Below are positions 11,854 through 44,443 of a stretch of DNA of 45,275 bases, piece after piece. The stretch spans positions 1 through 45,275 of the forward strand of contig JANXRG010000055.1 in NCBI GenBank assembly GCA_025353105.1, given 5' to 3'. This stretch comes from Verrucomicrobiota bacterium (GTDB taxonomy: Bacteria; Verrucomicrobiota; Verrucomicrobiia; Chthoniobacterales; SZAS-18). A program made the position numbers and the translations under genes. The first letter of the stretch is position 1; every line of letters starts with the position of its first letter. The notes beneath the pieces are model-generated. The model was given only the letters and a program-made list of their open reading frames with translations. It made no database searches and was not told the origin of the DNA.

Positions 11854-12370
11854 GCCGTAAGATAACAAGAGACGGGACTTTTGGAGCTTGTTCTCCCGAT
11901 GTTTGCCCTCGATGTCGATGCGGACACATCGGTGAACGAAAGAATGGGCCGCATTGCATTTTTCATCGATCGAGTGGCCGGATATCGCCGCGGCCAGTCA
12001 GCGCTTCCGACGTTGCAAGAGGAGCGACCGGCGAGGTGGAAGGCAAGTCGGAATCATAAACGTCCGTTCAATTAGCAAAGGATTCAACGCGATCCATCTT
12101 GATCGCGAGGGCGGGATTTCTGCGGTTCGAGCCGCTCCAAACCAGCTCTGCCATCCGGAGCGAGCGCAGTGAGTCGAAGGACCTCGTGGTGCGAATTCTC
12201 GCTCACCGCGTTCTGCCCGGTCACGTGAGGCGTAAAATGCGATGGCAGGAAAGATTCCGATCTTTCGGCGCAACTTTTGCGTGGGTCGCGGCGTTAAACG
12301 CCTAGTCACAACACGTCTGCGCATTCGACCGCAGTCCCAGCAAACAACCGCCTCCAGCCCCTCCCCGACG
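11854..12370. other. Intergenic region, 517 bp, divergent promoters and a dispersed-repeat-like stretch
   Basis: It lies between the leftward methyltransferase and the rightward DUF1800 gene, so it should hold the promoters of both. No reading frame in it looks like a gene. The one recognisable element is the repeat-like stretch at 12146-12186. Confidence 0.5.
12146..12186. repeat. Possible dispersed intergenic repeat
   Basis: The stretch containing CCATCCGGAGCGAGCGCAGT and then GAGTCGAAGGACCTCG resembles a family of intergenic repeats of the type 'CATCCTGAGCGAGC..GAGTCGAAGGA' present in many copies in several bacterial phyla. Only one copy is in this window, so the repeat nature is from memory of similar sequences and not shown here. 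Confidence 0.4.
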
Positions 12371-15262
12371 ATGCAACTCCGCCTCCGCTCCCTCGTCACG
12401 CTCCTCGCGGTCCTTTGCGCGCCGCTCCCGCTCATGGCGGTCACCGGCACGGCCAACGTCGTCAACATTTCCACGCGCCTGAAGATCGAAACCGGCGACA
12501 GCGTCGGCATCGCGGGCTTCGTGGTGCAGGGCACCGGCAACAAGCAGGTGCTGATTCGTGCGCTGGGCCCGACGCTCACCGCGGCGGGCGTCACCGGCGT
12601 GCTCGCGGATCCGTTTGTCGATTTGTACGACGCGAGCGGTCAGATCATTGCGAGCAACGACAATTGGGATCAGACCGCGAATATTCAGGCATGGCACACG
12701 AGCCTGGGCCTGACGCTGCCGCAGGCGAGCGAGTCGGTAATTTCCATCTCGCTTGCGCCCGGCGCATACACGGCCGTCGTCCGCGGCGTCGCCAACACCA
12801 CGGGAGTCGCCCTGGTTGAGGTCTACGACTGCGATCTCGCCGCCCCGTGTTCACCCATCAACATCGCCACGCGCGGGATCGTTCGCTCCGGCGCCGCGGT
12901 GATGATCGCGGGCTTCGTCGTCCAGGGCACGGTCCCGAAGCAAGTCCTCCTGCGGGTGGTCGGCCCGACGCTCACGTCGTTCGGCGTGCCCAACGTCCTC
13001 ACGGATCCGCAGATGGATGTGTACAACAGCGCGAGCACAAAAATCTTTTCGAATAACGACTGGCAGACGCAAACCGCGCAGGGCGTCGCCGATGTCATCG
13101 CCACCGGAAAGGCACCCACGGATCCGCGCGAGCCAGCACTCGTCCTCAACCTGAATCCGGGTGCCTACACGGTCATCGTCAGCGGCGTCGGCGGGATGGA
13201 GGGCAACGCGCTGGTCGAGGTGTACGACCTGCAGCCGACCACCCCGGCGCCGACCCTGACCAACGGCACGCTATATCTCGCGGATCTTCGTCCGGCTCCG
13301 GGTGTCACGACGAATGGCTCGGGCACGGCGGCCCTCACCGTCAACCAAAGCGGAACTTCCGCCATCGTCAGCTTTACCTACTCCAACCTCAGCGGCACCG
13401 TCACGAGCGCGGACTTGGAAGGTAGCCCAGGCTCCGCCTACGCCGGCCTCGATCTGTTTGATCTGAATCCGAGAGCGGTGCAGGCGGACGGGACCTGGCT
13501 GTGGAATTTCGCATTCACAAACGGCAGTCTCACGTCGGCGCAGATCCTCGCTCTCATCCAAAGCGGACAAGTTCTGATCCGGGTTTACACAACGGCCGAC
13601 CCCGGGGGCGAGCTGCTGGCGCCCTTTAGTTCCGCCATTGGCGGCCAGACGTTTTCGCCTCCCGCGCCACCGCCCGCCTTTTCCCTCTCGCCCGTGACCG
13701 CGAGTGATGCCTCGCGCCTGCTGACGCAAGCGACGTTCGGGGCGACGAATGGCAGCCCATCCAGCGACAACACTTCGATCGGCTATGTCCAGACCAAGGG
13801 AATCGATGCGTGGTTGAACGAGCAGTTCTCGCTGCCAGTCACCCCGTTGATGAGCTACGTCGACTCGGTCTGGAATCCGTCCATCGGCAATACGCAGGGA
13901 GCAACCGCGGCCCATTATGGATGGTGGCTGCATTCGGTGACGGCGCCCGATCAACTTCGCCAGCGCGTGGCGTACTCGCTCAGTCAGATTCTGGTGGTCT
14001 CGTCCAATTCCGCCGGCTTGAACACCAATCCGATCGGCGTGGGCGCCTATTATGATGTGTTGCTGAACGACGCCTTCGGCAACTTCCGCCAGTTGCTCGA
14101 GGACATCACGCTCAATCCCGGCATGGGGGAGTTCCTCGACATGGCCGGTAACGCGAAGGGAAATCCCGCCATTGGATCGAACCCCAACGAAAATTACGCG
14201 CGTGAAATCAACCAGCTCTTTTCCGTGGGGCTTTATCAACTTCACCCGGACGGAACCTTGGAACTCGACGGTCGGGGGCTGCCGATTCCCACGTACGGAC
14301 AGTCGACGGTGACCAACTTCGCCCGGGTGTTCACCGGATGGAACTACGCCGCCCCCACGACTTCGTTTCCTCCCATCAACTTGCGGAGTCCGATGGTGAA
14401 GAATGCCAACAAGCATGAACCCGGATCGAAAAGCCTGCTGAATGGCCTGACCATCCCGTCCGTCACGACCGCCACGACGGCCACGATGGATTCGGACTTG
14501 AAGACCGCGCTCGACAACATCTTCTATCATCCAAACATCGGACCGTTCATTTCGCATCAGCTCATCCAGCGGCTGGTGACCAGCAATCCGAGCCCTGGCT
14601 ACGTCTATCGCGTCGCGCAGGTCTTTGCCAACAACGGAGCCGGTGTCCGCGGCGACTTGAAAGCGGTCATCAAGACGATCCTCGAAGACTACGAGGCGCG
14701 GACCACCGCCATCCTTGGCTTCCCCGGCACGGGGAAGCAGCTCGAGCCCGTTCTACGCACCACGAAAGTCATGCGCGCATTTGTGAGTAATCCGTTCACC
14801 AGCGGCGGCACCCTGGCGGCACCGTTCTATAACTTTGACTCGACATTCGGTCAGACGCCCCTGCGCGCCCTCACGGTCTTCAATTTCTACCCGCCGGAAT
14901 ACTCGGCCCCGGGCGATATCTCCAATGCGGGGCTCGCCAGCCCGGAGTTCGATATCACGACGGAAACGACGCTGATTTCGACGGCGAACTTCATTCGCAC
15001 GCTGATTTACAACGGCCAGGGCGCCGGGGCAAACAAGGTCAATCTTGATTTTTCAGCGTTCGCCAGCTTGGCGACAACCGACCCATCTGCCCTCCTTGAT
15101 CAATTGAACTTCCTGCTGATGGCCGGGCAAATGGACGCGACGATGAAGGGCCAGATTATGACTGCCGTCAACGCCGTTCCGTCCACGGATGGAGGCTTCA
15201 ATCGCGTTCGCTCCGCCGTCTATCTCATCACCGTCGCACCGCAGTATTCCACCCAGCGCTGA
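12371..15262 (+). CDS. DUF1800 domain protein with N-terminal beta repeats and a CHRD-like domain (copy 1)
   Basis: 963 aa. ATG 12371 is chosen because it starts the signal peptide MQLRLRSLVTLLAVLCAPLP; upstream in-frame codons give no sensible N-terminus. Residues about 25-155 and 165-290 are two related beta-rich repeats (IAGFVVQGTGNKQVLIRALG and IAGFVVQGTVPKQVLLRVVG). A CHRD-like segment follows (about 300-420, ending GQVLIRVYTTADPGGEL). The C-terminal part is DUF1800, with signatures NENYAREINQLFSVGLYQLH, FARVFTGWNY and FISHQLIQRLVTSNPSPGYV. It is exported; biochemical function unknown. It is followed 23 bp later by a DUF1501 gene, the usual partner, and the pair is repeated downstream. 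Confidence 0.92.
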   Translation: MQLRLRSLVTLLAVLCAPLPLMAVTGTANVVNISTRLKIETGDSVGIAGFVVQGTGNKQVLIRALGPTLTAAGVTGVLADPFVDLYDASGQIIASNDNWDQTANIQAWHTSLGLTLPQASESVISISLAPGAYTAVVRGVANTTGVALVEVYDCDLAAPCSPINIATRGIVRSGAAVMIAGFVVQGTVPKQVLLRVVGPTLTSFGVPNVLTDPQMDVYNSASTKIFSNNDWQTQTAQGVADVIATGKAPTDPREPALVLNLNPGAYTVIVSGVGGMEGNALVEVYDLQPTTPAPTLTNGTLYLADLRPAPGVTTNGSGTAALTVNQSGTSAIVSFTYSNLSGTVTSADLEGSPGSAYAGLDLFDLNPRAVQADGTWLWNFAFTNGSLTSAQILALIQSGQVLIRVYTTADPGGELLAPFSSAIGGQTFSPPAPPPAFSLSPVTASDASRLLTQATFGATNGSPSSDNTSIGYVQTKGIDAWLNEQFSLPVTPLMSYVDSVWNPSIGNTQGATAAHYGWWLHSVTAPDQLRQRVAYSLSQILVVSSNSAGLNTNPIGVGAYYDVLLNDAFGNFRQLLEDITLNPGMGEFLDMAGNAKGNPAIGSNPNENYAREINQLFSVGLYQLHPDGTLELDGRGLPIPTYGQSTVTNFARVFTGWNYAAPTTSFPPINLRSPMVKNANKHEPGSKSLLNGLTIPSVTTATTATMDSDLKTALDNIFYHPNIGPFISHQLIQRLVTSNPSPGYVYRVAQVFANNGAGVRGDLKAVIKTILEDYEARTTAILGFPGTGKQLEPVLRTTKVMRAFVSNPFTSGGTLAAPFYNFDSTFGQTPLRALTVFNFYPPEYSAPGDISNAGLASPEFDITTETTLISTANFIRTLIYNGQGAGANKVNLDFSAFASLATTDPSALLDQLNFLLMAGQMDATMKGQIMTAVNAVPSTDGGFNRVRSAVYLITVAPQYSTQR

Positions 15263-15285
15263 TTCCACGTTTGCATCCTCCAGCC

Positions 15286-16758
15286 ATGAAATCCCCGAAC
15301 AACCTGAATCGCCGCTCCTTCATCCGGCAGGCCGCCTGCGCCGCCGTCGGAACCCTTGGCATGACGAACGCATTGTGGGATCTTCGCCGCATTGCCGCCG
15401 CGACCATGAACAACTCCAGCGTGGCCGCGAGCAACTACCGCGCGCTGGTTTGCATTTTCCTATTTGGCGGCAATGACGCCAACAATATGATCGTGCCGAG
15501 CGACATGACGGACTTTAATAGCTACGTCGCTTCGCGCGGGATTCTGGCCCTGCCGGCCGCGGGACAGGTCGGCGGAATCCTCCCGATCAATCTAATTCCC
15601 GGTCGCGGCACCAATGACGGTCGCACCTTTGGTTTGCATCCTAACTTCGCCGATTACGCCTCGCCGAATGGCACGCTCCCGGGCGTTCAAAGCCTTTTTA
15701 ACAGCGGAAATCTCGCCGTACTTGGAAACGTCGGCACGCTGCTCTATCCAACCACCCAAAACGACTACCGGACCAAGCCGGGCAACCTGCCACCCCAGCT
15801 CTTTTCCCACAGCGACCAACAAGTCGAGTGGCAGACCAGTGTTCCGCAAATGGTGAACTCCAGCGGTTGGGGTGGCCGCGTTGCCGACCTGATGAATGCC
15901 AGCCTCGGGAGCACCCAGATTTCCACCTGCATCTCGTTGAATGGCACCAATACTTTCCAAGTCGGGAACACGGTCGTCCCTTATAGCGTCTCTCCGTCCG
16001 GCGCGATCGGCCTGACCGGCTACACGCCGGGGAGCGCGAGCGGCACCCAGTCGTACGCAATCGATCAACTGATCGCAGACAGCCACAATAATCTGTTTGA
16101 GAAGACGTTTGCCGCGACCACCCAACGCGCGCTGCAAAACAACCTTCTGCTCTCGGCCGCCCTCAGCCAGACCAATCCTAACGCCGCCCCCTATTCATCG
16201 TTCGACACTTCGTCGTCGATGGCGACCCAGCTCAAGATGGTCGCGCGACTCATCGCCGCGGCGCAAACCCCGGGATCCGGTTTGAATCCCAAACGCCAGA
16301 TCTTCTTCGTCTCGGTCGGCGGCTACGACACGCATTCCGGTCAGTTGACCGCGCAGAACAATCTCTACACGGAGCTGAACAACTCGCTTGCCGCATTTTA
16401 CGCGGCGATGACGCAACTTAGTTTGGCCAGCAATGTGACGGCGTTTACGTCGTCGGATTTTGGCCGGACTTTCCAGACGAATGGCGCCGGCTCGGATCAC
16501 GGCTGGGGCAGCCATCACCTCGTGATGGGCGGAGCGGTCATGGGCGGGGGCATCTATGGCCGCATTCCCGTGCTGCAAGCCGGTGGACCGGACGACGCGA
16601 CCAACAGCACCACGGGCCAAGGGCGCTGGATCCCGTCCGTTGCCGTCGATCAATACGCGGCAACCCTCGCGAGCTGGTTTGGAGTCAGCCCGACGGATCT
16701 TCCGACCGCGCTTCCCAACATCGGAAACTTCGCCAGTTCGAATCTAGGATTCGTTTGA
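15286..16758 (+). CDS. DUF1501 domain protein, Tat-exported (copy 1)
   Basis: 490 aa from ATG 15286 (MKSPNNLNRRSFIRQAACAA). The twin-arginine motif NRRSFIR followed by a hydrophobic stretch suggests Tat export. DUF1501 belongs to the alkaline-phosphatase/sulfatase-like superfamily; visible signatures are LVCIFLFGGNDANNMIV, PQLFSHSDQQVEW, FFVSVGGYDTHSGQL, FTSSDFGRTF and GSDHGWGSHHLVMGG, the last with the clustered His residues expected of a metal site. The in vivo substrate is unknown. The gene follows its DUF1800 partner after 23 bp, suggesting co-transcription. Confidence 0.93.
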   Translation: MKSPNNLNRRSFIRQAACAAVGTLGMTNALWDLRRIAAATMNNSSVAASNYRALVCIFLFGGNDANNMIVPSDMTDFNSYVASRGILALPAAGQVGGILPINLIPGRGTNDGRTFGLHPNFADYASPNGTLPGVQSLFNSGNLAVLGNVGTLLYPTTQNDYRTKPGNLPPQLFSHSDQQVEWQTSVPQMVNSSGWGGRVADLMNASLGSTQISTCISLNGTNTFQVGNTVVPYSVSPSGAIGLTGYTPGSASGTQSYAIDQLIADSHNNLFEKTFAATTQRALQNNLLLSAALSQTNPNAAPYSSFDTSSSMATQLKMVARLIAAAQTPGSGLNPKRQIFFVSVGGYDTHSGQLTAQNNLYTELNNSLAAFYAAMTQLSLASNVTAFTSSDFGRTFQTNGAGSDHGWGSHHLVMGGAVMGGGIYGRIPVLQAGGPDDATNSTTGQGRWIPSVAVDQYAATLASWFGVSPTDLPTALPNIGNFASSNLGFV

Positions 16759-17041: not shown

Positions 17042-19969
17042 ATGCATTCCCGCCTGCGCTCCCTCGTTTCCCTCGCCGCCCTCGTTCTTCTTCCCCTCGC
17101 CAGCCCATCCGCGTTTGGCGCGCCAAACGTTGTCAACCTGTCCACCCGCCTCAAGATTGAAACCGGCGGGAGCGTTGGAATTGCCGGATTCGTCATCCAG
17201 GGAACCGGGGTAAAGCCCGTGATGATTCGGGCGCTCGGACCTACGCTCAGCGCTCGGGGCGTGACCGGGGTTCTGGCCAATCCGTCGATGGAAATTTACG
17301 ATTCGGGCGGGACAAAGTTTGGCAGCAACGACGACTGGGACCAGACGGGCGACATCCAGACAAAGCATGCAACGCTCGGCCTCGCACTCCCGCAGGCTGC
17401 TGAATCGGTCATTTATGCCGTGCTGCCTCCAGGGGCCTACACGGCAATTGTCAGCGGGGTGGGAGGCACCACAGGCGTGGCCTTGGTGGAGGTGTACGAC
17501 ATGGACACCACCGCGACGTGCTCGCTCATCAATGTGGCCACGCGCGGCATCGTGCGGACCGCCGCAGAGGTCATGATCGCGGGCTTTGTCCTCAGCGGCA
17601 CGGGGACCAAGGACGTCATGGTCCGCGCGATCGCGCCGACGCTGATCCAGTACAGCGTTCCAAACGTGCTCAGCGATCCGACCATCGATGTCTACGACAG
17701 CACCGGCACCAAGATTTTCTCGAATGACAATTGGGCCACGCAAACGCTGCCGGCCACCGCCGCGACCATCACCGGCACGGGCAAGGCGCCCACCGACAGC
17801 CGGGAATCCGCGCTCGTCATGACGCTCAGCCCAGGCGCCTACACCGTGATCATGAGCGGCGTCGGTGGCGCAGTCGGCAACGCGTTGGTGGAAGTTTACG
17901 ATTTGGCCGCAACGACGCCGCCCGCGGTCAACGGCCAGGTCTATCTCACCACCCTGCGACCGGTGGCTGGGGCCGTGTCGACCGGATCGGGCGACGCGTC
18001 GATGATCGTCGCAGCCGATGGCCTGTCGGCGACCGTCAATCTCCCGCGCTACACCGGCTTGTCCGGCAACATCGTGGGCGCGCACATTGAGAATTCCAGC
18101 GGAGCCAACTTGTTTGACCTCAATCCGAATTCCATGCGCGTCGATGGCACGTGGCTCTGGACATTTGCCTTCACCAACGGAAGCCTCACGGCGGCACAAG
18201 TCGCCGACTTGATCCGGACGGGGCAAGTGGTGCTCCGGGTATATACGGACACCAATCCGGGCGGCGAACTCGCCGGCACGTTCGGGGCGGCCGCCGGCTC
18301 CACCACCTTCTCACCTCCCGCTGTCCCACCAACCCTGCCCGGCGGTACGCCCGCCGACTTCGACGCCTCGCGCTTCCTCGGCCAAGCCTCGTTTGGTCCG
18401 ACAAGCATCAGTTCGGTCTCGGATAAAACGTCGATCGCCTACGTGAAGAACAAGGGATTCAGCGCGTGGATTGACGAGCAATTCACGATTCCGGCGACGA
18501 CCTTCATGCCGGCGATGCCGCTACCGTTCGCGGACGCCGTCGTGCCCGCGCAGGTCGATCTGCCGAGCCTGTCAAACGTCTACTACACCTGGTGGCAGAG
18601 GTCGGTGACCGCGCCGGACCAGCTCCGCCAGCGCGTCGCCTACGCGCTCAGCCAGATCCTGGTCGTCTCGACGAACTCCGCCAACCTGAACGACCAGCCC
18701 TACTCGCTCGCCTCTTATTACGATTTGCTGCTGAACGACGCCTTTGGAAATTTCCGCACGCTTCTGAAGGACCTCACGCTCCATCCCTCGATGGGCGAAT
18801 TCCTCGACATGCTTAAGAACCAGAAGGGCACACCGAACGAAAACTACGCGCGAGAAATCAACCAGTTGTTCTCGATCGGCCTGTATCAACTCTACTCCGA
18901 CGGCACGCTTCAGCTTGATTCGCGCGGCCTGCCGGTCGCCACCTACGACCAGAACGCGATCATCGGGTTCGCGCGGGTGTTCACCGGTTGGTCCTATGCG
19001 GACGCGGGGGCAAACTTCTTTGCGGGACGCGTCTTTGCGATCGGCGTGACCCCGCCTTCCCTCACGACCCCGATGCTCCTCTTCCCGACGCGTCATGAAC
19101 CTGGAGCGAAGACGCTGCTCAACGGCGTGACCATACCCGCGTTGCCGACGGGAACGGCGGTGACGGCCGCGAGCGCCTACAGTGATCTCGACGCAGCAAT
19201 CAACTGCATCTTCAGCCACCCAAACCTCGGCCCGTTCATCGCGCGGCAGCTCATCCAGCGCCTGGTCACGAGCAATCCGAGCCCCGGCTACATCTATCGC
19301 GTCAGCCGCAAATTTGATGACAACGGCCAGGGGGTGCGCGGCGATCTCAAGGCCGTGGTGAAGGCGATTCTCAGCGACTACGAGGCGCGAACGACGGACA
19401 CGCTCGCCTTCCCCGGCACGGGCAAGCAACAGGAACCCGTCCTGCGCGTCGCGAAAGTGTTGCGCGCCTTCGGGGCCACCTCGACCAGCGGCAAATGGCT
19501 CATCGGCGGGACGGACGGAACGCTCGGCATGACGCCGCTGGCGGCACCGACGGTCTTCAATTTCTTCGCGCCCGACTACATCGCGCCGGGCGATCTGGCC
19601 AACGCCAACCTCCTCAGCCCGGAGTTTGACATCACCAACGAATCGACCATCACGACCGCGGCGAACGCGATGCGCTCTCTTGCGTTCGACGGCATCGGCG
19701 GTGGCGGCACGGACCGAACGAAGCTCAGCTTCAATCTCAACACCAGCACCGATCCGTGGATCGGGCAGAGCATCAATCCGACAACGCTGGTGGATCAATT
19801 CAATCTACTCCTAATGAGCGGGCAGATGCCGACAACCATGCGCGACAAGATTGCGACCGCCGTGGCGCTCACGAACAACGGTGGCACCTCCGGCGCGAAT
19901 CAACTCGAGCGGGTGCGAACAGCGGTCCATCTCATCATCACGTCCCCACAGTTCTCCACCCAGCGCTGA
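17042..19969 (+). CDS. DUF1800 domain protein with N-terminal beta repeats and a CHRD-like domain (copy 2)
   Basis: 975 aa from ATG 17042, which starts a signal peptide (MHSRLRSLVSLAALVLLPLA). It has the same architecture as the gene at 12371: two beta repeats (IAGFVIQGTGVKPVMIRALG and IAGFVLSGTGTKDVMVRAIA), a CHRD-like segment ending GQVVLRVYTDTNPGGEL, and DUF1800 with NENYAREINQLFSIGLYQLY, FARVFTGWSY and FIARQLIQRLVTSNPSPGYI. The conservation of order and motifs shows a paralogue; divergence is spread over the whole length, so the duplication is not recent. It is followed 37 bp later by a second DUF1501 gene. Confidence 0.93.
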   Translation: MHSRLRSLVSLAALVLLPLASPSAFGAPNVVNLSTRLKIETGGSVGIAGFVIQGTGVKPVMIRALGPTLSARGVTGVLANPSMEIYDSGGTKFGSNDDWDQTGDIQTKHATLGLALPQAAESVIYAVLPPGAYTAIVSGVGGTTGVALVEVYDMDTTATCSLINVATRGIVRTAAEVMIAGFVLSGTGTKDVMVRAIAPTLIQYSVPNVLSDPTIDVYDSTGTKIFSNDNWATQTLPATAATITGTGKAPTDSRESALVMTLSPGAYTVIMSGVGGAVGNALVEVYDLAATTPPAVNGQVYLTTLRPVAGAVSTGSGDASMIVAADGLSATVNLPRYTGLSGNIVGAHIENSSGANLFDLNPNSMRVDGTWLWTFAFTNGSLTAAQVADLIRTGQVVLRVYTDTNPGGELAGTFGAAAGSTTFSPPAVPPTLPGGTPADFDASRFLGQASFGPTSISSVSDKTSIAYVKNKGFSAWIDEQFTIPATTFMPAMPLPFADAVVPAQVDLPSLSNVYYTWWQRSVTAPDQLRQRVAYALSQILVVSTNSANLNDQPYSLASYYDLLLNDAFGNFRTLLKDLTLHPSMGEFLDMLKNQKGTPNENYAREINQLFSIGLYQLYSDGTLQLDSRGLPVATYDQNAIIGFARVFTGWSYADAGANFFAGRVFAIGVTPPSLTTPMLLFPTRHEPGAKTLLNGVTIPALPTGTAVTAASAYSDLDAAINCIFSHPNLGPFIARQLIQRLVTSNPSPGYIYRVSRKFDDNGQGVRGDLKAVVKAILSDYEARTTDTLAFPGTGKQQEPVLRVAKVLRAFGATSTSGKWLIGGTDGTLGMTPLAAPTVFNFFAPDYIAPGDLANANLLSPEFDITNESTITTAANAMRSLAFDGIGGGGTDRTKLSFNLNTSTDPWIGQSINPTTLVDQFNLLLMSGQMPTTMRDKIATAVALTNNGGTSGANQLERVRTAVHLIITSPQFSTQR

Positions 19970-20006
19970 TCTCCGCCTTTCGAGCGTCCACCTCCGTCTT
20001 ATCCCG

Positions 20007-21473
20007 ATGAATACGCCCAACCTCATCACCCGCCGCTCCTTTATGCGCCAGGCCGCCTGCGCGGCTGTCGGCACCGCCGGCCTAACCAATGCGCTCTTTG
20101 ATTTGCGCAAGATTGCCGCCTTCAGCCTCGGAAATTCCGATGTGCTGAGCGGCGATTACAAAGCCCTCGTCTGCCTGTTCCTTTACGGCGGCAACGACGC
20201 GAACAACATGATCGTGCCGACCTCGACGACTGATTACAACGGCTACACCGCAGCCCGCGGTGGCATTGCGCTCCCGCTTGCCGGAATCCTTCCGATCAGT
20301 CCGCTGACAAGCGATGGACGAACCTTCGGCCTCAACGGCAACCTGACCGGCCTCAAGTCGCTTTTCGACCAGCAGAAACTCGCGATTCTGGCCAACGTGG
20401 GTTCCCTCGTTGAGCCTCTCGCCAACGTCACCGACTACCGCTCGTCGAGCAAGCGCAAGCCGCCGCAGCTTTTCTCGCACAGCGACCAACAGTCCCAGTG
20501 GCAGACCAGTGTGCCGGACGTGGGTCTCGGCGCCGTGACGGGATGGGGCGGACGCATGGGTGAACTGGCGGCCCTAAAGGCGTTGAACTCCAGCGGTCAG
20601 GTTTCGGTCTGCATTTCGCTCAACGGTAACAACACGTTTCAGGTGGGCGACACGGTAGTCCCCTACAACGTCTCCACCAATGGCGCCGTGGGCCTCAACA
20701 ACTACATCTATGGTGCCCCAGTCGGTGCCAATGCGAACGACCTCCTTCGTTCCCGCGCGATCGACGACCTCATCGCGCTGAGCCACACGAACCTGTTCGA
20801 AAAGACCTTTGCCGCCACGGCTAAGCGTTCAATCGACAACGCCGCGTTGCTCAGGGTTGCCCTCAATCGGACCGATCCCGTGTTGGGCACGCCGCTCGCG
20901 ACCGTTTTCCCGACCACCGGATTAGGCAACCAACTCAAGATGATTGCCCGCTTGATTAAGGGTCGCGACGATCTGAATCTCCGTCGCCAAATCTTCTTCG
21001 TCTCGGTGGGCGGGTACGACACGCACACCAACGAAGTAACCGCGCAGAACGGCCTGTACGCCGAGCTCAGCGGGGCCGTCAGCGCTTTCTACGCCGCCAC
21101 GGTGGAAATGGCGGTGCAAGATACCGTCACCACCTTCACGGGTTCAGATTTCGGCCGCACCTACCAGGGCAATGGCAACGGTTCCGACCACGGTTGGGGC
21201 AGCCATCATCTGATCGTCGGCGGCGCGGTGCATGGCCAGAACATTTACGGGAACCGCGGCATGCCCGACCAGGTGCTCAACCAGACCGGCGCGCCCCACG
21301 TCAATCCCGACGACACCGGCCAGGGCCGCTGGGTGCCATCGACCTCGGTGGACGAATACGCGGCGCGCCTCGCGCTTTGGTTCGGCGTCAGCCAGACTGA
21401 TCTTGCGTCCGTTTTGCCGAACATCGGAAGGTTTAACACGAATTATACGGACCCAAAGCTGGCCTTTATCTAG
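20007..21473 (+). CDS. DUF1501 domain protein, Tat-exported (copy 2)
   Basis: 488 aa from ATG 20007 (MNTPNLITRRSFMRQAACAA); upstream in-frame codons lie inside the DUF1800 gene and give no signal peptide. Twin-arginine motif TRRSFMR. DUF1501 signatures are LVCLFLYGGNDANNMIV, PQLFSHSDQQSQW, FFVSVGGYDTHTNEV, FTGSDFGRTY and GSDHGWGSHHLIVGG. It is clearly a paralogue of the protein at 15286. One difference is a longer C-terminal insertion before the DDTGQGRWVPS segment. It closes the four-gene DUF1800/DUF1501 array. Confidence 0.93.
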   Translation: MNTPNLITRRSFMRQAACAAVGTAGLTNALFDLRKIAAFSLGNSDVLSGDYKALVCLFLYGGNDANNMIVPTSTTDYNGYTAARGGIALPLAGILPISPLTSDGRTFGLNGNLTGLKSLFDQQKLAILANVGSLVEPLANVTDYRSSSKRKPPQLFSHSDQQSQWQTSVPDVGLGAVTGWGGRMGELAALKALNSSGQVSVCISLNGNNTFQVGDTVVPYNVSTNGAVGLNNYIYGAPVGANANDLLRSRAIDDLIALSHTNLFEKTFAATAKRSIDNAALLRVALNRTDPVLGTPLATVFPTTGLGNQLKMIARLIKGRDDLNLRRQIFFVSVGGYDTHTNEVTAQNGLYAELSGAVSAFYAATVEMAVQDTVTTFTGSDFGRTYQGNGNGSDHGWGSHHLIVGGAVHGQNIYGNRGMPDQVLNQTGAPHVNPDDTGQGRWVPSTSVDEYAARLALWFGVSQTDLASVLPNIGRFNTNYTDPKLAFI

Positions 21474-22480: not shown

Positions 22481-22823
22481 ATGCGGATTCATCCGGTCTG
22501 CGCGCTCGGCTGGGCGTCCATTGCCAGCCTCATCGCGAGCGGCACGACTGCCTCCGCCCGCCCGCCCACTCCGCCGTTGCCGGCCGGTGGGTTCGTGGAG
22601 CCGGAGACATTTCTGATCACGAGGGTGTTGTCCACGGCGGCGATTCCGTCTCGCCATTATCATGTTCCAAAAAAATGTACCGCGTGTCACGACTAGTTCC
22701 GGAGAACGAGTGATGGATTCGGCCACGATCGCGGTCGCGGTTCGAGCGCTGAACCGTCGACCTCTCTGGCGTCGAATTGCTTGCGAAGGTTTGCGCGAAG
22801 GAATATCAATGACGATTCGATGA
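22481..22823 (+). pseudogene. TonB_C-like secreted protein, frameshifted at an A7 tract (or expressed by slippage)
   Basis: ATG 22481 starts a signal peptide (MRIHPVCALGWASIASLIAS) and a short region FLITRVLSTAAIPSRHYHV. The frame then crosses seven A's (22669-22675) and stops 15 nt later at a TAG (22694-22696). With one A fewer the reading continues VPRVTTSSGERVMDSATIAV and runs to a TGA at 22821-22823, giving 113 aa. That second part carries the RVTxSSG--xxD pattern of the TonB C-terminal domain and matches the gene at 23592 (RVTQSSGRSEIDAIAFDY). The repaired stop overlaps the start of the next gene as ATGA, strong support that the second frame was or is translated. Mutation, sequencing error or slippage cannot be separated here. 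Confidence 0.7.
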
Positions 22824-23569
22824 CTCGTCACCTGCACCCTCGTCTCAAGCGTGGGCGACGGCATCAGATCGCTGGATGGCTCATGATCAGCATCGCTGGT
22901 CTCGTTGGCGCTGGCGCATCCGCCCTTGCCTCCCCGTATGCCGACGCTCTCAGTGCGCTGAACCGCCGGCAATACGAGGAAGCCGCCCGTTTATTCGGTC
23001 ACGCCATCGCCTCGAATCTTCAGCCTGGGGAATCGCTTTGGTACCGCGCGGAAATCCGGGCGTACCAGCGGCGTCCAGCCGACGCGTATGCAGATTGCGA
23101 TCGCCTGAGGCAGCTCGCGCCGCGGTCGTCCGCCTCCCTGCTGGCGCGCGCCCGCGTGTGCGAATTGCTCGGGGACGACCCGGGAGCCGAGCGCAGCCTG
23201 CGCGCGGCGATCGCGGCGTTTCCCATGTCCCCGCGGGCGTACAATTCCCTCGCGTGGCGACTCGCGACCAACCCATCGGCCGGCGTGCGCAACGGACGCG
23301 AAGCCGTGCGACTCGCACAGCGCGGCTGCGACCTGACGCATTTTGAAAGTTGGGGTTATCTCGACACTCTCGCCGCCGCCTACGCCGAGGCCGGCAACTG
23401 GACGGAGGCGGTCCGCGTTCAACGGGACGCCATCGAACGCGTCAAACGAAAGATCTCCCATGGGCCGGCGAACGAGACCCTCGAAGAAATGAACGTACGA
23501 CTGCGCGAATTCCAGTCGTCGAAGCCCTATCGCCGTCAGCCCGACCGGGAGGTTTTGGTCGACAGTTAA
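22820..23569 (+). CDS. Exported TPR protein
   Basis: 249 aa. ATG 22820 is chosen over upstream in-frame codons because it overlaps the repaired stop of the preceding gene (ATGA) and gives a basic N-terminus followed by a hydrophobic segment (IAGWLMISIAGLVGAGASAL). The rest is TPR-type helical repeats: residues about 45-110, then YNSLAWRLATNPSAGVRNGR and WGYLDTLAAAYAEAGNWTEA. The last two form a version common in Planctomycetes and Verrucomicrobia (LAWxLATxP..VRxGxxAVxLA). The role is probably protein-protein interaction in the periplasm. It sits between two TonB_C-like genes, so a shared function in envelope or transport is possible. Confidence 0.82.
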   Translation: MTRHLHPRLKRGRRHQIAGWLMISIAGLVGAGASALASPYADALSALNRRQYEEAARLFGHAIASNLQPGESLWYRAEIRAYQRRPADAYADCDRLRQLAPRSSASLLARARVCELLGDDPGAERSLRAAIAAFPMSPRAYNSLAWRLATNPSAGVRNGREAVRLAQRGCDLTHFESWGYLDTLAAAYAEAGNWTEAVRVQRDAIERVKRKISHGPANETLEEMNVRLREFQSSKPYRRQPDREVLVDS

Positions 23570-23591: not shown

Positions 23592-24299
23592 ATGCAACAC
23601 ATAAAATCATCCTCCCTCGCCTGTGCCGTGTTTTTCGCGCTCGCGTGCCCTTCGGTCGCGCGGGCCAAGGAACCCGCGAAGCCGGCGAGCAACATGAAGT
23701 TTCTTAAGATCCCCACCGAATACCTGATCACCCGCACCTTGCAGTCGACGAGCGGTCCGCTCCGCACCTACCGCGTGGTGATCACAATCCCGCCCACCGC
23801 CAATCCCAGGGCCGCGCAGGCCCGGGTTACGCAGAGTAGCGGAAGAAGCGAGATCGACGCGATCGCGTTTGACTACGCTCGGGAGATGGTGAAAACCCCG
23901 GCCCTCCGGGCGCTCGTCGGCACGAAAGAACTGGTCTTCCCGCTGGTGGTCGAGCCGCCACAACTGGATTCGTCGTTACGCGCGGACGAGGGGAAGAGAC
24001 CCATTCCACCGGATAAAGACGTGTCATTTCCGGATTCGGGGATCGTTCTGTACGATCAAAACACTCAGGTCCATCCTTCGATGAGCTTCCACGGGAAGAT
24101 GCGGATCATTTTCCCGCCGGCGGGCGGCTACGCCAAAGAAGTCTGTATCCTGGCGCCCTCGGGCGATACCAATACGGACAAATTCTTCCTGCGGTATCGA
24201 CTTTCAAACTGGCAAATTCGCCGATCCTCCAAGGAGCCGCAAATCTTGGACGTCGATTTTGGCGTCCGGCGCGATCCCCACCGTCCCCTCAGCTGGTGA
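23592..24299 (+). CDS. Secreted protein with two TonB_C-like segments
   Basis: 235 aa from ATG 23592. Signal peptide ending near VARA (residue 25). Residues about 42-125 contain YLITRTLQSTSGPLRTYRV and ARVTQSSGRSEIDAIAFDYA, resembling the TonB C-terminal fold. A second such segment follows at about 165-230 (MRIIFPPAGGYAKEVCILAP, then FLRYRLSNWQIRR). It lacks an N-terminal TonB membrane anchor beyond the signal, so it is not a classical energy transducer. It starts 22 bp after the TPR gene, and its end overlaps the convergent kynB gene by 11 bp. The TonB_C link is from pattern only. Confidence 0.7.
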   Translation: MQHIKSSSLACAVFFALACPSVARAKEPAKPASNMKFLKIPTEYLITRTLQSTSGPLRTYRVVITIPPTANPRAAQARVTQSSGRSEIDAIAFDYAREMVKTPALRALVGTKELVFPLVVEPPQLDSSLRADEGKRPIPPDKDVSFPDSGIVLYDQNTQVHPSMSFHGKMRIIFPPAGGYAKEVCILAPSGDTNTDKFFLRYRLSNWQIRRSSKEPQILDVDFGVRRDPHRPLSW

Positions 24300-42659: not shown

Positions 42660-43949
42660 ATGCAGATTAACCGCATGAACACGAAGCGCGACAAGTTCCC
42701 CCTCTCGATTTCGAAAGGCTCGGCGACGGTCAAAATTTACCGCGATCGCACAAAGGCGAGCGGCACCTATTACCGCGTTTGCTTCTACATGGGAGCGAAG
42801 CGACACCGACTCAGCTGCGCCACGCTTGAGGAAGCGAAGGCCGAGGCCAATGCGAAGGTGGACGCTCTGTCTCGAGGGGACATGGATGCGCTGCAATTGA
42901 CCGGCAAGGACCGTTTGGTCTACAGCCGGGCATTGGAGAGCCTCCGGCCCTATGGGGTCGCCTTAGACGCCGCAGCGCACGAATACGGCGAAGCAAAGAA
43001 GATTCTGGAGGGATTCTCTGTTTCGGACGCTGCCCGCTTTTACATGCGCCACCACGGACGAAAGGTGACTTCGAAACGCGTGAGCGAGGCAGTGGAGGAG
43101 ATGCTTACGGCGAAGGCTGAGAAGGGTGTAAGCGTGAAGTACCTGGAGGATTTGCGCTACCGACTCAGAAAGTTCGCAGGAGCGTTCGCCTGCAACGTGG
43201 GGTCCATAGTGCCCGATGACGTTCGGACGTACTTGGGGTCGCTGAAGCTCGCGGCGCGCGGCCACAACAATATGCTTTCGACCATCACGACTTTTCTGTC
43301 CTTTTGTGCGCAGCGGGGGTGGGTTTCGGAGGACTCAGACCTTCTCAAGGGGATCGACAAGCGAAAGGAAAAATCTGTCCCTGTCGAAATTTTCACACCA
43401 AGAGAGATGGCCGCATTGCTGAATGAAGCGTCTGACGAGCTTCGCCCCTGCTTGGCTCTAGGTGGGTTTGCTGGACTACGGTCGGAAGAAATACTTCGTC
43501 TTGAATGGTCCGATGTTGAGCGGAGACCAGGCTTCATTGAAATTGCAGCTGCGAAGGCGAAGACGCAGGCGCGGCGGCTGGTGCCCTTGGCTGACAATTT
43601 GGGTAGCTGGCTGGCAGAATCGTCTCAGTCTTCAACCGGAAAACTTTGGCCGTACAGTAAGCCGTACTTTTTCGAGACGCTTCGTGACACCCTCGATCGG
43701 ATAAACAAGAAGCGGGCGAAGGGCGCCGCGCAATTTGTCTGGAAGAACAACGCATTGCGCCATTCGTATATAAGCTATCGACTGGCTGAAATTCAGGATG
43801 TGAATCGCGTTGCTCTGGAGGCTGGAAATTCGCCGCGAATGATTTTCCAGCATTACCGCGAGCTTTGCACGCCAGCGGACGCGAAGACATGGTTCTCGTT
43901 GTCGCCGGTCGCGTCTCCCATAATCCTTAGAATGAAAGCGAGTCGATGA
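42660..43949 (+). CDS. Tyrosine recombinase / integrase
   Basis: 429 aa from ATG 42660 (a second ATG at 42675 is an alternative). N-terminal arm with FYMGAKRHRLS; core-binding helices around 140-230; catalytic domain 240-410. Catalytic residues: Arg274 (FAGLRSEEI), Lys301 or 299 (AAAKAKTQARRLVPL), Arg367 in NALRHSY and the nucleophile Tyr399 in FQHYREL, with His398 at the H/W position. The usual His three residues before Arg367 is Asn364, a change found in some active family members. It lies directly after tRNA-Glu and drives integration or excision of the element. The next gene overlaps its stop by ATGA. Confidence 0.95.
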   Translation: MQINRMNTKRDKFPLSISKGSATVKIYRDRTKASGTYYRVCFYMGAKRHRLSCATLEEAKAEANAKVDALSRGDMDALQLTGKDRLVYSRALESLRPYGVALDAAAHEYGEAKKILEGFSVSDAARFYMRHHGRKVTSKRVSEAVEEMLTAKAEKGVSVKYLEDLRYRLRKFAGAFACNVGSIVPDDVRTYLGSLKLAARGHNNMLSTITTFLSFCAQRGWVSEDSDLLKGIDKRKEKSVPVEIFTPREMAALLNEASDELRPCLALGGFAGLRSEEILRLEWSDVERRPGFIEIAAAKAKTQARRLVPLADNLGSWLAESSQSSTGKLWPYSKPYFFETLRDTLDRINKKRAKGAAQFVWKNNALRHSYISYRLAEIQDVNRVALEAGNSPRMIFQHYRELCTPADAKTWFSLSPVASPIILRMKASR

Positions 43950-44443
43950 CCGTGCCATTTCCTTCACCCTTTGAGTTGGCGCAACTCGCTCAACGCATAC
44001 CGAAGGCGAAATGCAATCGCGATGCTATTCGCTCAGCGCTTCTACTGTGGTTTGAAGCTGTTTATGCGCTGGAAGAATCAAAGGACACTGACGGGATCGA
44101 GCCCTTCGAAATTCGGAATCATTGTACGCGTATCATCGAGAACATTTGCGAAAACGCGGCAGATGAGAGGCACCGGGACGCAACGGCTGCCGCTTTCTTT
44201 AGCGATCCGGCCCATCAGCGGATATCAGCCAGAGATGCTTACGCGTTCTTCATGCAAACCGTGAAAGACTCCCGCGACATCAAGACCTTCGAAGGATTCT
44301 TGAAAGCATGGGAGAACTTTCACCCGCCGAAAGGGCTCGCGCTCACGCCGTTTGCGGTTGAGCACTTTCGCTCCGAACGCGAGGCAAAGCGCAAGAAGGC
44401 CGGCCGCGAAGCAAAGAAAAGAAGCCGTAGTAAAACTGGCTAG
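43946..44443 (+). CDS. Island hypothetical protein, 165 aa
   Basis: It begins at the ATG overlapping the integrase stop (ATGA at 43946-43949), so the two are translationally coupled. No family recognised. It is soluble and mainly helical (AIRSALLLWFEAVYALEE, NHCTRIIENICENAADERHR) with a Lys/Arg-rich end (EREAKRKKAGREAKKRSRSK). The basic tail and coupling suggest a nucleic-acid-binding or integrase-assisting role, but this is a guess. Confidence 0.75.
   Translation: MTVPFPSPFELAQLAQRIPKAKCNRDAIRSALLLWFEAVYALEESKDTDGIEPFEIRNHCTRIIENICENAADERHRDATAAAFFSDPAHQRISARDAYAFFMQTVKDSRDIKTFEGFLKAWENFHPPKGLALTPFAVEHFRSEREAKRKKAGREAKKRSRSKTG

Follow-up and report, generated by a model that had tools for sequence, protein, structure and literature searches.

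The window analysed here is a stretch of 45,275 nucleotides, and at positions 22481–22823 two open frames follow one another around a tract of seven adenines, immediately before an intact TPR gene. The question raised by this locus is whether it encodes a protein made in two forms, a single short protein, or the remains of a broken gene. On the evidence below, the fragment is probably a degenerate pseudogene belonging to a small family of genes, a reading to which we assign a probability of about 0.8.

Layout of the fragment and its likeness to the neighbouring paralogue

The coordinates given by the first-pass annotation are exact, with the ATG at 22481, the A7 tract at 22669–22675 and the TGA at 22821–22823, all on the plus strand. 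The first frame (frame A, 22481–22696) encodes 71 aa, comprising an N-terminus that by eye resembles a signal peptide and the start of a domain (PETFLITRVLSTAAIPSRHYHV), and it is closed by a TAG at 22694–22696, shortly past the A7 tract; the window contains five A/T runs of 7 bases, this tract included. The second frame (frame B, 22617–22823, plus strand), whose codons begin at coordinates that are multiples of three, is open from 22617, carries PRRRFRLAIIMFQKNVPRVTTSSGERVMDSA and stays free of stops up to its TGA, which overlaps the ATG at 22820 of the intact TPR gene (22820–23569, plus strand) as ATGA. Joining the two frames by skipping one A yields 113 residues. The intact two-domain TonB_C-like paralogue at 23592–24299 on the plus strand (the 23592 gene) serves for comparison.

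A profile of the first domain was built from eight relatives only: the 23592 gene, a pair of copies from contig C97 of the fragment's own genome, a further two from genome G001, and single ones from G004, G031 and G057. Against this profile, the frame A ORF scores 7.3 bits, narrowly above all 5000 of its self-shuffles (maximum 7.1), and frame B scores 16.1 bits, above all 5000 of its own (maximum 9.8). The joined reading reaches 18.2 bits, compared with a maximum of 5.5 among 2000 self-shuffles, and frames A and B match consecutive parts of the first domain. The likeness to the paralogue that had been noticed by inspection is thus above chance in both frames and in the joined reading. Since both frames surpass all their shuffles, both pieces most likely descend from a 23592-type gene, and homology to an intact family is what a pseudogene would display.

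Furthermore, the fragment shares a signal-peptide-like start and the LITR...P and RVTxSSG motifs with the 23592 gene and its relatives in G001, G004, G031, G039 and G057. Compared with these proteins, it has no second domain, is divided between two frames, and lacks the KELxF block and, around the YRVxxxxPP strand, some 7 positions of the domain.

The label "TonB_C-like" from the first-pass annotation applies only indirectly. In a Pfam search, neither the fragment nor the 23592 protein gave a match, the curated cut-off of TonB_C (PF03544) not being reached, whereas the second domains of two relatives, L048 on C97 and L044 in G004, pass it and that of a third relative lies just below. The AlphaFold model of the 23592 protein, computed from a four-row alignment with a mean pLDDT of 44 and not taken as proof, is poor but places a strand at residues 58–65. 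A PDB search with this model returned weak matches only, TonB C-terminal domains among them.

Position of the frame change and the missing parts of the domain

In a codon-by-codon junction scan, +1 junctions from 22663 to 22681 score 15.6–18.3 bits, and an upstream junction at 22624–22630 scores 15.7–16.5 bits. With the upstream junction, frame B contributes PRRRFRLAIIMF, which aligns to the family strand. Whichever junction is used, about 5–7 residues are absent relative to the relatives. Taken together, the scan and a frameshift-aware alignment place the frame change between approximately 22624 and 22684. The continuation in another frame proposed by the first-pass annotation is retained, but the A7 tract is only one candidate site for the change within this interval.

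With the junction at the A7 tract, model positions 35–40 remain empty, and about 7 of the 97 domain positions are lacking. This gap falls on the site of the YRVxxxxPP-like strand, which is kept in all nine relatives read. In addition, the alignment of the fragment stops at model position 79 of 97, leaving the last 18 unmatched. In the frameshift-aware alignment, the score rises by only 1.2 bits with the shift, from 25.9 to 27.1. As control, the G039 orthologue of the 23592 gene, which carries a true one-base shift, gains 25 bits in the same program (127.1 vs 102.2) and covers positions 3–97, with no position lost at the shift and one skipped earlier, at position 44. The gap, the unmatched end and the 1.2-bit gain, set against this clean control, argue that the lesion is not one A. 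The earlier proposal that a single A is at fault is thus not borne out, because its removal still leaves the gap of about 7 positions around the strand and the last 18 positions unmatched. A deletion whose length is not a multiple of three would be the simpler event, judged from these alignments. A further frame change near 22760–22823, where AKEYQ-stop-RF by eye resembles SKELYFQF, was not adopted by the frameshift-aware alignment.

In the preferred reading, the fragment would be a surplus copy, old and diverged, of a gene for a small exported TonB_C-like protein of the 23592 type. Situated just upstream of the TPR–TonB-like gene pair, it would no longer have an intact frame and would be without one or more core pieces of its domain. 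The simplest event would be one small deletion that is no multiple of three in length, estimated from the relatives at approximately 14–20 bases; the A7 tract would fall within the break or close to it. The 3′ part, which does not follow the codon pattern of the genome, would now act only as spacer and as the start region of the TPR gene. The homology of both frames, the missing positions, the codon pattern and the absence of the copy from two syntenic relatives are observed; the deletion itself, the loss of function and the lack of any role for the fragment are inferred. A disabled reading frame with loss of conserved positions is present, and ordinary bacterial pseudogenes caused by small indels resemble the fragment in their lost frame, absent core residues and drifting codon pattern, and in lacking a counterpart in syntenic relatives, with no notable difference from the present case. 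The fragment is real but ordinary, and carries little biological weight.

Codon pattern, the ATGA overlap and rival readings

In frame A, GC3 is 0.84 over the 50 codons of 22481–22630 and 0.50 over 22631–22666, and in frame B it is 0.48–0.53; the drop lies near 22630, approximately 40 bases upstream of the A7 tract. The 32 ORFs of the window treated as genes range from 0.59 to 0.85, and 48-codon stretches as low as frame B occur 41 times among the 10761 in these ORFs, all within two ORFs at the window end, the integrase gene and its neighbour. The phage-type integrase gene and the following ORF (42660–44443) have GC3 values of 0.66 and 0.59, and this region is possibly a mobile element.

The ATGA overlap had been regarded as proof that the second frame was selected as coding. 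The GC3 of 0.48 in frame B, against 0.59–0.85 in the genes, speaks against this, and the 48-codon open frame required for the overlap arises in about 20% of trials with random sequence from a first-order model of matching composition. Near the same overlap, in 22798–22823, AAGGA stands six bases 5′ of an ATG at 22809, which opens a four-codon frame (MTIR, stop) whose end is the ATGA shared with the start of the TPR gene; it could be a coupling mini-ORF or a product of chance.

The low GC3 of frame B points to an absence of purifying selection on the broken part. The 5′ part of frame A, however, still has a GC3 of 0.84 over 50 codons, so that decay is uneven along the fragment and this part might still yield a short secreted peptide; this value and the stop-free run of frame B to the ATGA overlap count against the pseudogene reading. 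The 71-aa frame A ORF alone might accordingly be a short functional exported peptide with the remainder as spacer, a reading favoured by the same GC3 value and by the signal-peptide-like start recognized by eye. It is nevertheless improbable, for the ORF ends within a domain and no relative of 71-aa length was found. To a similar degree, it is unlikely that an assembly or sequencing error conceals a different tract length and an intact short one-domain paralogue. The genome is a draft of 121 contigs and does contain a short one-domain relative (L048, 2106–2561, 151 aa), but with an altered number of A's the strand and C-terminal block are still absent and the domain is not restored, the GC3 of frame B remains 0.48, and other A7 tracts of the window sit in intact genes.

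The first-pass annotation also proposed an expressed switch, in which slippage or length variation at the A7 tract yields two protein forms. This reading is very unlikely, even though the tract falls inside the interval where the frames can join and frame B stays open as far as the ATGA overlap. At this site, A runs of 5 or more are absent from all nine relatives, and the comparison of tract length thus fails to support a conserved tract. The joined product is without the domain core, and a one-unit change in the tract still misses the strand and the C-terminal block. Entering frame B requires one A lost or two gained, and the gain of one A leads into the third frame, which meets a stop about a dozen codons on. 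In E. coli, transcriptional slippage on homopolymers rarely removes a base, and fewer than 1% of transcription deletions begin inside uninterrupted homopolymer runs (PMC5574713). In the case of Citrobacter rodentium tssM1, functional slippage occurs at an A11 tract with adenosines gained (PMC4256274); both tssM1 and the fragment have an A tract shortly 5′ of a stop and a continuation in another frame. Unlike tssM1, the fragment has seven A's rather than eleven, needs one base lost or two gained, produces no complete domain and has a tract that is not conserved. Meanwhile, the ORFs holding two further A7 tracts in genes of the window (30553 and 34483) are intact. Slightly less credible still is an operon leader using both frames, in which frame A would give an exported peptide and occasional A7 slippage into frame B would couple translation to the TPR gene through the ATGA.

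From the first-pass view of a broken gene, the disrupted copy of a 23592-type gene with its continuation in another frame stands, and the A7 tract as lesion, the selected overlap and the switch are not supported. A plausible one-base mend with a neat stop–start overlap calls for a check of the relatives, the codon pattern and the completeness of the domain before it is taken for a switch.

Relatives, synteny and other broken copies

The order of a TPR gene followed by a TonB-like gene is common to G001 and G004. Upstream of this pair, G001 has a minus-strand gene that by eye is pseudouridine-synthase-like, and G004 has a gene that by eye is aspartyl-tRNA-synthetase-like; the domain profile found no extra copy upstream of the pair in either genome. 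Searches for an intact orthologue of the fragment were negative in 57 related genomes, in 388 genomes from the phylum scanned with the domain profile, in 3 genomes of the genus compared at the DNA level, and in one contig scan with the two-domain family.

Broken copies occur elsewhere in the family. In the genome of the fragment (G000), a TonB_C-type copy on the minus strand of contig C58 (L089, approximately 2153–2530) is cut by an in-frame TAG (...ANAHPKP-stop-GMTTLRVYVNKDG...) and adjoins an intact copy (L089, 1570–2055). The G039 control (L067, approximately 4267, contig C23), which belongs to another MAG, has no long homopolymer near its one-base frameshift. In addition, the window itself contains two successive pairs of a DUF1800 gene (with CHRD) and a DUF1501 gene, at 12362–16758 and 17042–21473, which apparently represent a tandem duplication.
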